Positions 7,564-10,534 of a DNA stretch of 32,501 bases are shown here, in pieces (the first letter of the stretch is position 1; every line of letters starts with the position of its first letter). A program made the position numbers and the translations under genes. This DNA comes from an uncultured Phycisphaera sp. Lineage in GTDB: Bacteria; Planctomycetota; Phycisphaerae; Phycisphaerales; SM1A02. The notes beneath the pieces are model-generated. The model saw nothing but the letters and a program-made list of their open reading frames with translations. It was not told the DNA's origin and did not search any database. The stretch lies in NCBI GenBank assembly GCA_937919685.1, contig CALFOM010000238.1, forward strand, positions 1-32,501, given 5' to 3'.

Positions 7564-8169
7564 TTAGGATTCCGCCCGACTCCGAGGGTCATCGAACGCC
7601 GGCAAGGGCGTTTTCGGCCCTCCCGGCTCGGGACGCCACCAGGCTCTGAACGCCGGCGCCTCCCCGAACGTCTCCACCTCGATCTGAAACTCGCTTCGCC
7701 CTGCCGGAAAAACCATCGCGCCCGTTTCGATCTCGGAGCCATCGCGTGCGGTGCTACTTCGGATCTCCTCAACTTCGCGAAGAAACCGGACCCGGCAGTC
7801 ACGAAGGTCTGCTCCCAGACTCGCGAACGTCACATCCGGAAGATCGATCGCAACTCGATAGACGGCTTTGAAAGGCCCCGTCGGAAGGTCTGCCGCGAAG
7901 GCGTCGCCTTTCTTCAGATCGAATTCAAGTCTTGAGACGGGTCGTATCACGATTCGTCCCGTGAAATCGATTTCCACCGTCGCCCGCGGGGGACGAACGG
8001 AAGCCGCGCCGGGTTCGATGGTGAGTGGCGAAAACCGCGGCGGATCCGGGAGATGACGCACCCAGAAAGACACTCCGCATGCCGTGACGGCGATCCCGAT
8101 CGACATGATCCACCACTGCAAGGCCGAGCCGGACCGCCGGTTGATTCGCCTGATTGTCCGGTGTTGCAT
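7564..8169 (-). CDS. Membrane-anchored protein of unknown function
   Basis: I do not recognise the family. The 201-residue product has a basic N-terminus, one hydrophobic helix at about residues 17-37 and an extracytoplasmic domain rich in beta-type sequence (ATVEIDFTGRIVIRPVSRLEF). A single signal anchor is the simplest reading. ATG at 8169 was chosen over 8202 because AGGGAA lies about 10 nt upstream. TAGAAT (8201-8206) and TAGATT (8189-8194), both on the minus strand, are candidate -10 boxes giving a short leader. It lies 82 bp downstream of the sigma4-like gene on the same strand. Confidence 0.7.
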   Translation of the reverse strand: MQHRTIRRINRRSGSALQWWIMSIGIAVTACGVSFWVRHLPDPPRFSPLTIEPGAASVRPPRATVEIDFTGRIVIRPVSRLEFDLKKGDAFAADLPTGPFKAVYRVAIDLPDVTFASLGADLRDCRVRFLREVEEIRSSTARDGSEIETGAMVFPAGRSEFQIEVETFGEAPAFRAWWRPEPGGPKTPLPAFDDPRSRAES

Positions 8170-8225: not shown

Positions 8226-8257
8226 GATCAACCGATCAACCGATCAACCGATCAACT
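8226..8257. repeat. 8-bp tandem repeat GATCAACC, 4 copies
   Basis: Three perfect units and one unit with a changed last base start at 8226, 8234, 8242 and 8250. The array covers the stop codon of the minus-strand gene at 8252. A further GATCAACC lies nearby, at 8264. Confidence 0.8.
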
Positions 8258-8734
8258 CGATTCGATCAACCGACGAGCCACCTCCAGTCCGATCAGCAAC
8301 ATCGCCACGGCCGCCATCCAGATGAGAATCATCGGCCATCCGGCCTTCTCTCGAACTGGGTCCGGCTCGACCGCGGAGGGCTCGAAGGAATCCACCATCG
8401 ACCGGAGCGCGGAAGCGTCTTCGGCCGAATAGCGGTGTTCCGCAGTGACCAAGTGCCCACGAAGCGCTGTCCGGGAGCAATCCAAGGCCAACGCCGATTC
8501 TCGCTCCTCCCAGCCCAGAACGGTGGTCAGAATCCAAGCCTCGCGGACGCGATCACCCCCGCGAGGCTCCGACTCCCGATATGCAAAGACCGCCAGCCGG
8601 TCGCCCCGAGCGGCAAACGAGGGGTGCCCTCGAAGGGTCATCGCCCGATGCTCCGCGATCGATCGATCCATGCCGAGGGCGAGGAGCAGACGACAGATTC
8701 GAATCTGCTCCGAGTCGACGAGAGTTTTCTTCAT
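8252..8734 (-). CDS. Sigma-70 region 4-like protein with C-terminal membrane anchor
   Basis: The 160-residue product has a segment at about 66-102 (AWILTTVLGWEERESALA...) that aligns by eye with the helix-turn-helix of sigma-70 region 4, including the Ala-x-x-Leu-x-Cys-Ser core and a following Leu-Arg-x-x-Leu helix. A single hydrophobic helix at about 133-151 follows an acidic linker. Residues 1-60 could be a degenerate region 2 but I cannot show it. I infer a membrane-tethered regulator or a decayed ECF factor. ATG at 8734 is preferred over 8755 because TAGGAT ends 7 nt before it; no ribosome binding site is visible. It is divergent from the carboxypeptidase gene. Confidence 0.6.
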   Translation of the reverse strand: MKKTLVDSEQIRICRLLLALGMDRSIAEHRAMTLRGHPSFAARGDRLAVFAYRESEPRGGDRVREAWILTTVLGWEERESALALDCSRTALRGHLVTAEHRYSAEDASALRSMVDSFEPSAVEPDPVREKAGWPMILIWMAAVAMLLIGLEVARRLIESS

Positions 8735-8741
8735 TCGTCGA

Positions 8742-8747
8742 ATCCTA
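8742..8747 (-). promoter_or_regulatory. Probable -10 box of the sigma4-like gene (leaderless)
   Basis: TAGGAT on the minus strand ends 7 nt before ATG 8734. No Shine-Dalgarno sequence follows. Confidence 0.45.
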
Positions 8748-8780
8748 TCCGGCAATTCGGATGCCCCCCCTCAGCACCGC

Positions 8781-8786
8781 TACACT
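8781..8786 (+). promoter_or_regulatory. Probable -10 box of the carboxypeptidase gene
   Basis: TACACT would place the transcript start near 8793, giving a leader of about 35 nt that contains GGAGG (8813-8817). A weak -35-like TTCGGA lies at 8756-8761. Contrast with the leaderless divergent neighbour. Confidence 0.35.
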
Positions 8787-8827
8787 TTCATCACGTCGTC
8801 TCGCAAGGATGCGGAGGTTCCCCGGCC

Positions 8828-10534
8828 GTGAGCAGATTTCACCCTCGAGCAGTCCATGTTCTGGCCGTATCGACCGCGACCTTTCTCGTCATGGCGACGA
8901 TTTGGTGGTCAAAGGCCGATGCGGAAGCCGCCGCGCAGAATTTCTCGCCGGCGACGCTCGAATCACCGACGACGGCCCTTGATCCCGCGACATCCAGCGG
9001 ATCTGCCGTCGCACCGCGAATTCTCCGTCCGATCGAACCCCCGAAAGCGACCGCCGCCCAGGAGCAGGCTTTGGCATCGGAGGTTCGACGACTGGTCTCC
9101 AAGGCACGTGGCGGACCGGGCCCGCTTCAAGGCACCGAGATTGCCGTGAGCATTCGAGCGTGCGACGACGGCCCCGGACCCGGTCGGGAACTCCTCGAGA
9201 TCAATGGCGATCGGCCGCTTCTCCCCGCCAGCAACATGAAGTTGATCTCGACCGGCGCGGCCCTTCATGTCCTCGGTCCTGAATTTTCGTTCGAGACTCG
9301 AATCCGCGGAGTTCGGGACACCTTCATCGTGATCGGCGACGGCGATCCATCTCTCGCGGATCCCGTGTTCTTTTCCGCGTTGGCCTACCAAGACGCTGAT
9401 GGAACGCAACATGAACTCGACGAAGAGTCGATTCTTGGATTTTGGGCGGATGCCATCGTCGAGGCAGCACCACCCGATGGTCGAGTGACTCTCCTCGTCG
9501 ATGATTCGATCTTCGAATCCCGACTCTGGAACGACGGCACCAACGGCGTTGATGGATGGAATCCCCACGATCGGCTTCGCGGTTTCTCCGCCGAAGTCAC
9601 CGGGCTGAACTTCCATCGCAACACGATCCACTTTCGACCGACGACCTCCGGATCGACCCGCCCAAACTGGGACGACATGCGGCCTCGTCTGGATTCGATG
9701 CTCCAGGCCGCCCAGAATGAATCCCAGATCAGCAAGAAAGTACAGACGGCCTGGATCCTCCGCAGCCCAGAATCCGATCTACTGACCTTCAAAGGCGAGG
9801 TCAAGCCTCCGAAGCAGGGGCAACGGATCGCACCTCTGGAGGTCACTGTCCACGATCCCGCGATGCAGTTCCTTCGAGTGCTTGCGGACCGCGTGACGTC
9901 GCGGGGAGTCACGGTCGAGCGAATCGGCCGAACCGCAGATGGTCGAACTGCTGGCGGAACCGATGTCGGCCCGGTGGTCCGGATGCCCCTTGGCCCGATC
10001 ATCGAACACTGCAACGAAACGAGCCAGAATCTCTATGCGGAATCGCTCCTGAAAAGGAGCGTTCATGCGATGACTGGTCGCCCCGGATCCTGGGCCGACG
10101 CCGACGCCAGCATTGAACGCATCGCGGCGAAGAGACTCGGCGACGCCGCGCCGTCGCTGACCAAGGACATTCGCATTGAAGACGGCTCCGGTCTTTCACG
10201 TCGAAACCTGATGACCACTGAATTCCTCACCGCGTGGCTGGACTCCTTCCACGACGATCCGAAACTCTCCGAGGTCTTCGTCGAGAGCCTCGCTCGCGGC
10301 GGCGAGGAAGGGACCTTGAAGTCGAGATTCACCGAACTAAGGGGATCGTCGATCCGAGTGGATGCCAAGACCGGTTTCATGACCGGGGTCAGTTGTCTCA
10401 GTGGCTTCGTCACCTCCGAAGACGGACGTCGATGGTCATTTAGCGTCTTCTGCAACGGCTTCAAGGGAACTTCGAATTCCGCCAAGCGACTTCAGGACGC
10501 GATCGTCATGGCGATCGCAGATCACATCGAATGA
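8828..10534 (+). CDS. dacB: D-alanyl-D-alanine carboxypeptidase/endopeptidase, PBP4 type
   Basis: Family S13 serine peptidase that trims or cleaves peptidoglycan cross-links in the periplasm. The 568-residue product has an N-terminal hydrophobic segment (about 9-26) serving as signal or anchor, then the three active-site motifs in order: SxxK as SNMK (Ser135, Lys138), SxN as SQN (399-401) and KTG (514-516), plus DGSGLSR at 452-458, typical of PBP4. The long insert between SxxK and SxN also fits PBP4. GTG at 8828 was chosen because GGAGG lies 10 nt upstream and the signal segment follows at once; the reading upstream to 8435 overlaps the divergent gene. The stop overlaps the recQ start by 4 bp. 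Confidence 0.9.
   Translation: MSRFHPRAVHVLAVSTATFLVMATIWWSKADAEAAAQNFSPATLESPTTALDPATSSGSAVAPRILRPIEPPKATAAQEQALASEVRRLVSKARGGPGPLQGTEIAVSIRACDDGPGPGRELLEINGDRPLLPASNMKLISTGAALHVLGPEFSFETRIRGVRDTFIVIGDGDPSLADPVFFSALAYQDADGTQHELDEESILGFWADAIVEAAPPDGRVTLLVDDSIFESRLWNDGTNGVDGWNPHDRLRGFSAEVTGLNFHRNTIHFRPTTSGSTRPNWDDMRPRLDSMLQAAQNESQISKKVQTAWILRSPESDLLTFKGEVKPPKQGQRIAPLEVTVHDPAMQFLRVLADRVTSRGVTVERIGRTADGRTAGGTDVGPVVRMPLGPIIEHCNETSQNLYAESLLKRSVHAMTGRPGSWADADASIERIAAKRLGDAAPSLTKDIRIEDGSGLSRRNLMTTEFLTAWLDSFHDDPKLSEVFVESLARGGEEGTLKSRFTELRGSSIRVDAKTGFMTGVSCLSGFVTSEDGRRWSFSVFCNGFKGTSNSAKRLQDAIVMAIADHIE

Follow-up and report, generated by a model that had tools for sequence, protein, structure and literature searches.

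The best-known case of sigma mimicry is PhyR, a response regulator. In an excerpt of PMC8103513, the sigma-like domain of PhyR is described as correct in its ECF structure, degenerate in its promoter and core regions, and active through binding an anti-sigma factor. ECF sigma factors fused to the membrane are also already known, as related in part of PMC8999054. Our literature search retrieved nothing on a family of membrane-anchored, sigma-like proteins in Phycisphaerales, and the family described below may still match a named ECF group.

The window analyzed here is one whole contig (C238, 32,501 bases) from a source genome of 254 contigs. Its reverse strand carries at 8252..8734 an ATG-initiated gene, here called REG, which encodes a tail-anchored sigma-like protein of 160 amino acids and was delineated from the open reading frame, homologs, an AF2 model, and dN/dS. 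The initial annotation had treated 8252-8827 as one interval; the reading frame accounts for 8252-8734, and the remainder (8735-8827) is the spacer to dacB. In a protein search, REG was found to be encoded in all eight sampled genomes of the window's genus at 53–82% identity, and dN/dS is about 0.09–0.21 among unsaturated pairs of genus members. Because of this retention and these low ratios, REG is considered a real gene rather than a chance open reading frame, and it is under purifying selection.

The protein search with REG matched 17 of 61 genomes at E ≤ 0.01, including one false match (L016 in G056) that was dropped because its frame reads as a probable hydrogenase. A profile search with alignment A1 put 29 genomes of the window's family over the cut, two of them through weak sigma-4 matches only; these two were left out, so that full-length REG is counted in 27 of 151 family genomes. 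A search with alignment A2 over 301 genomes of the order recovered REG in 38, distributed over the window's family (16), a second family (19), and two further families (2 and 1). In a phylum sample of 294 genomes, matches outside the order fall mainly on the sigma-4 columns, and those followed up were ECF sigma open reading frames, which were excluded from the REG member counts. L106 in G329 was dropped before counting as an ordinary ECF, and so were weak matches limited to sigma-4 in G062:C32, G026:C1, G033, and G089, two of which contain an in-frame stop. As far as sampled, the REG family is patchy and confined to one planctomycete order. Its occurrence across the genus, family, and order samples, together with low dN/dS, argues for a maintained protein.

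Structure prediction, one of the checks proposed in the initial annotation, gave an AF2 model of the window's REG with a mean pLDDT of 89.9, in which a sigma2-like half, a helix-turn-helix (HTH), and a transmembrane (TM) helix are present. The sigma-2-like half (residues 8–55; 8570..8713, minus strand) is shortened to three helices (8–19, 24–35, and 40–55), has lost the D and Q of region 2.2, and was recognized by the AF2 model, VIA, hhalign, and alignment. It is followed by the sigma-4-like HTH (residues 62–101; 8432..8551, minus strand; alignment, AF2 model, and Sigma70_r4_2), with helices at 62–72, 77–83, and 88–101, by a further helix at 104–115, and by a long C-terminal TM helix (residues 133–159; 8258..8338, minus strand; AF2 model and TM scan). 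The 30-member REG alignment (A2) has 14 invariant columns. Conservation within the family is highest at columns that include those of the HTH, and E65, A66, W67, D85, C86, S87, A90, and H94 are family-invariant.

Searched as a single sequence, the window's REG matched no Pfam or NCBIfam model, retrieved nothing from the PDB, and gave no confirmed relative in a scan of genome contigs. The proposed search with sigma70 region 4 profiles was thus negative for the window's protein alone and positive for its family: Sigma70_r4_2 is matched by 20 of 30 members (best 4.7×10−11), and NCBIfam sigma models by up to 21 of 30. A PDB profile search with the family matched SigG1, PhyR, and CnrH, and the sigma-4 columns of the family profile match ECF proteins throughout the phylum. 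The claim of an HTH like that of sigma-70 region 4 is thereby confirmed, the family profile aligning with the sigma-4 columns of ECFs. Against 18 ECFs, a small comparison set chosen by length from 41 extracted open reading frames (13 of the 18 from loci of the phylum-wide search and five from other loci, with one of the 18 also over the hydrophobicity cut), the family profile aligned across both sigma halves (hhalign 98.7%, E = 2.7×10−16).

The 14 best VIA matches of the REG model were all PhyR or ECF sigma factors (Z 9.8–6.6, the next row at Z 5.0), headed by 9by5 (9.8), 3n0r (9.7), SigJ (9.6), SigW (9.0), and CnrH (8.1); since the tool itself warns that middling Z values are common for helical models, the fold assignment rests mainly on sequence evidence. 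Foldseek returned no match to the model at E ≤ 0.001, the best being PhyR at 0.06. Several RNAP-bound sigma factors superpose on the model over both domains only at an rmsd near 27 Å, and the model therefore represents a closed arrangement, a form that single-chain AF2 models may favor. By AF2 model and VIA, REG resembles PhyR and anti-sigma-bound ECFs. Sequence, profile, and model agree that REG descended from ECF sigma factors and has kept the sigma2-sigma4 fold. The initial annotation had described the protein as lacking region 2, which is incorrect, since alignment, AF2, VIA, and hhalign all find a shortened three-helix sigma-2-like half that has lost the region 2.2 motif. Its suggestion of an ECF factor decaying into a membrane protein holds as to descent; “decaying” is wrong for the present state, because REG has invariant residues of its own and is under purifying selection.

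The two surfaces with which a sigma factor works are altered. The D of region 2.2 is present in 17 of the 18 comparison ECFs vs. 1 of 30 REG proteins, and the Q in 18 of 18 vs. none of 30; we take these positions to be contacts with the beta′ clamp. The net charge of the recognition helix averages +0.7 in REG vs. +3.6 in ECFs (P = 1.7×10−6, in a test that ignores relatedness), and the basic R-A-R run of ECFs is largely x-A-E/D in REG. The recognition helix of the window's REG is still at +2. As judged from the alignments, the REG family lacks the sequence hallmarks of contact with core RNA polymerase and promoter DNA. Without the region 2.2 motif and most of the recognition-helix charge, REG resembles a sigma mimic tethered to the membrane more than a functional sigma factor. 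Of the “DNA-binding module” first proposed, the sigma-4 HTH stands; DNA binding itself is questionable, given how little of the recognition helix's positive charge survives across the family.

Of 45 REG members, 43 have a TM segment C-terminal to the HTH, as expected from the proposal of a terminal TM helix and from the accompanying check whether homologs keep both elements; one exception is truncated at the end of its contig, and the other scores 1.56 against a cut of 1.6. Most members have 0–15 residues after the TM window and a few have up to 64, and no anti-sigma extension C-terminal of the TM helix was seen among the 45. Lysine and arginine are concentrated on the N-side of the TM helix in most members, which suggests that the sigma-like part of REG lies in the cytoplasm. 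In the window's genus, this bias is weak, and the window's REG has two such residues on either side.

Divergent from REG lies dacB (8828..10534, plus strand), assigned by Pfam to the Peptidase_S13 or PBP4-type D-Ala-D-Ala carboxypeptidases; its product matches PF02113 at 193.6 bits vs. a cut-off of 22.8 (E = 6.9×10−57), in full agreement with the carboxypeptidase neighbor first named. The family loci number 27 (the window and L077–L102), 26 of which reach the upstream side, the contig of L096 ending there. dacB is divergent from REG in 25 of the 26 (14 of 15 by genus); L095, in G070, is the sole assessable family locus with another gene upstream of REG. A dacB homolog is present on another contig of that genome (G070:C213). 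Neither dacB nor gene Y (see below) is present by profile in 18 loci outside the window's family, so the expectation that homologs sit beside dacB holds for 25 of 26 family loci and fails for all 18 outside it. Many family loci share one wider order (clusters c3, c2, REG, DacB, c4). In the window's genus and in g55, the pair is flanked by tsf/rpsB and recQ on opposite sides, and genera g10, g24, and g48 have no flanking cluster in common with other genera except c2. These differing surroundings indicate that the REG-dacB pair was held together through at least one change of context, and probably more. dacB itself occurs in 132 of the 151 family genomes vs. 27 for REG, and is therefore not dependent on REG. 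The names LigA, QueA, and FAD-linked oxidase are presumptive, being read from sequence.

The divergent intergenic region, read from the sequence, measures 93 bp (8735..8827). It contains a putative −10-like TAGGAT (8742..8747, minus strand) 7 nt before the REG start codon, which would be compatible with a leaderless transcript, and a putative −10-like TACACT directed toward dacB (8781..8786, plus strand). In many other genera, TACACT also stands just ahead of the start codon of REG (L084, L086–L088, L091–L093, L095, L097, L098, and L100), a placement that would be expected for a leaderless transcript. A search of the genus genomes identified a near-palindromic element, CGCANGGATGCGGAG, before the dacB start (8802..8816, plus strand), which lies upstream of dacB in all eight genus genomes, is nearly unique per genome, and is recognizable in g55. 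One further copy of this dacB leader element is located at G003:C49:31194-31208. Because CGCANGGATGCGGAG overlaps the likely ribosome-binding region of dacB, it is by itself no evidence of an operator. Many loci outside the genus share a CCGATACCAT-like −10 element upstream of dacB. A genome-wide promoter reading of CCGATACCAT was dropped, with 2–7 copies per genome in 10 genomes vs. 0–7 for the reversed-pattern control; with counts so near the control, no regulon can be claimed.

Downstream of REG, gene Y (7564..8169, minus strand) encodes 201 amino acids comprising a short N-terminal tail, a TM helix, and a PA14-fold domain (residues 57–193; 7591..8001, minus strand) assigned by structural match. 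The best match of this domain is 6qdi, an anti-sigma-domain protein of Clostridium clariflavum (Z 14.2, rmsd 2.7, 134 residues aligned). Only about 15 residues precede the TM helix, which starts at residue 16, and no cytoplasmic anti-sigma domain is visible in Y. Y or a longer form of it adjoins REG in 21 of 25 assessable family loci; it is missing in L084, L094, L096, and L099, and L095 and L100 were left out of the count. Outside the window's genus and g55, the corresponding frame spans 720–1104 amino acids with 4–5 CXXCH motifs in 10 of 11 loci (L085–L093, L097, and L098), L091 being cut by a contig end, and Pfam found cytochrome c domains in all five long forms tested. No CXXCH is present in Y of the window, seven genus relatives, and two g55 loci. 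Y thus matches the N-terminal portion of a longer protein of other genera that combines a membrane anchor, PA14, and multi-heme cytochrome c, and its TM helix and PA14 domain are kept in the window's genus and g55, where the heme part is absent. The PA14 pair of Clostridium thermocellum RsgI3 is reported, in an excerpt of PMC4711584, to bind pectin.

Outside the window's family, a histidine kinase lies directly downstream of REG in 5 of 18 loci. In these loci (L104, L159, L161, L166, and L172), the membrane histidine kinase is followed by a response regulator-like gene, identified by Pfam as a receiver-HTH regulator in L159; the others are putative response regulators, named from sequence.

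The apparent loss of grip on polymerase and DNA, together with dacB and sensor-like membrane proteins as neighbors, suggests that REG probably relays envelope signals by protein contact. With middling confidence, we regard REG as a planctomycete tail-anchored pseudo-sigma factor, probably acting in a PhyR-like manner by protein contact at the membrane, with dacB as the gene likely served. REG would act through protein-protein contact at the inner membrane face, comparable to the cytoplasmic action of the PhyR sigma-like domain. Through its TM helix and cytoplasmic face, REG would sense the state of a membrane protein encoded with it, which would be the TM and PA14 protein with or without heme-c domains here, and the histidine kinase in another family. 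REG may then capture or free a cytoplasmic partner, e.g., an anti-sigma or sigma factor, and the nearby process most likely served would be that of the envelope gene dacB. We infer the contact-based action, the signal from Y or the kinase, and the service to dacB; a candidate role in envelope-linked signaling fits the PA14/cytochrome, dacB, and histidine-kinase neighbors. A fuller scheme is offered tentatively, in which the pseudo-sigma would read a PA14/heme partner that senses glycans or redox state, or a kinase, and control an envelope program, including dacB, by partner switching, as a membrane sigma-mimicry switch. Several points speak against sigma mimicry, namely that Y has no anti-sigma domain and is missing in 4 of 25 loci, that the window's recognition helix is at +2, and that the genus is without the lysine/arginine bias. 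A search of the window's genome for NepR-like anti-sigma factors gave none over the cut-off, with two matches below it (E = 0.41 and 0.98), and the partner of REG could be an anti-sigma factor of another type.

The main rival explanation is that REG is a membrane-tethered DNA-binding regulator, whose HTH binds the 93-bp spacer and sets the transcription of dacB and of REG itself with Y as co-component, as in ToxR/ToxS or VtrA/VtrC. The divergent dacB in 25 of 26 family loci, across at least two clearly different contexts, would be expected of such a regulator, as would the conserved CGCANGGATGCGGAG element ahead of dacB in all eight genomes of the genus, the HTH with its invariant S87, A90, and H94, and the net +2 of the window's recognition helix, and co-component systems provide a precedent (PMC9214523). 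However, the basic residues of the recognition helix are lost across the family, CGCANGGATGCGGAG may serve translation given its overlap with the likely ribosome-binding region, the pairing with dacB is absent in all 18 extra-family loci, and many family loci have one gene order in common. On balance, direct regulation of dacB by DNA binding appears doubtful.

The loss of both sigma surfaces would also suit a non-regulatory membrane accessory, in which the sigma fold would have been recruited to the assembly or scaffolding of the neighboring membrane cytochrome or kinase, and REG does directly adjoin either a membrane protein with 4–5 heme motifs or a histidine kinase. Yet REG persists without the heme part and without Y, and its HTH is one of the best-conserved parts of the alignment, which makes an accessory function unlikely. 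We consider it highly improbable that REG is a functional ECF sigma factor that proteolysis releases from the membrane, in the manner of IutY or fusions of the ECF52 type: its ECF ancestry (hhalign E = 2.7×10−16) and the existence of membrane-fused ECF sigma factors activated by proteolysis (excerpt of PMC8999054) are set against the lost region 2.2 motif (D kept by one of 30 members, Q by none), the shortened region 2, the lost recognition-helix charge, and the fact that no anti-sigma extension was seen on REG.

What appears new here, as far as our literature search reached, is the combination of a membrane-anchored degenerate sigma factor without a receiver domain in planctomycetes, membrane-fused ECFs and sigma mimics each being known already. 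A conserved membrane-bound sigma fold without both working surfaces would be a second solution to sigma mimicry and, if true, a sigma-mimic system outside the alphaproteobacteria that does without a receiver domain. The REG family would make it testable whether sigma-like proteins serve as membrane signaling adaptors, and, for a phylum in which little is understood about the wall, it ties planctomycete cell-wall turnover to a possible sensor of glycans or redox state.

Among described systems, PhyR, the anti-anti-sigma factor of the alphaproteobacterial general stress response, shares with REG an ECF-derived fold, degenerate core-RNAP and promoter features, and a closed sigma2-sigma4 arrangement. 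PhyR carries a C-terminal receiver domain, whereas the REG chain consists of the sigma-like part and a TM helix only and is tail-anchored; REG would work like PhyR yet is not a PhyR member, because it has no receiver domain. IutY/ECF243, ECF48, ECF52, and ECF53 resemble REG in having an ECF sigma part followed by a membrane segment, but the excerpted account treats IutY, ECF48, ECF52, and ECF53 as sigma factors that carry an anti-sigma extension or a long regulatory one, whereas REG has lost the region 2.2 motif and in most members ends within 0–15 residues of the TM window. The RsgI-type anti-sigma sensors of Clostridium share with Y a single TM helix and a PA14 domain, but RsgI has an N-terminal part of about 165 residues, according to part of PMC4711584, that Y lacks. 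Finally, ToxR/ToxS and VtrA/VtrC combine a membrane-tethered HTH protein with an adjacent gene for a membrane partner, as REG and Y do; these systems use another type of HTH, whereas REG has a sigma-4 HTH and almost no extracytoplasmic domain.
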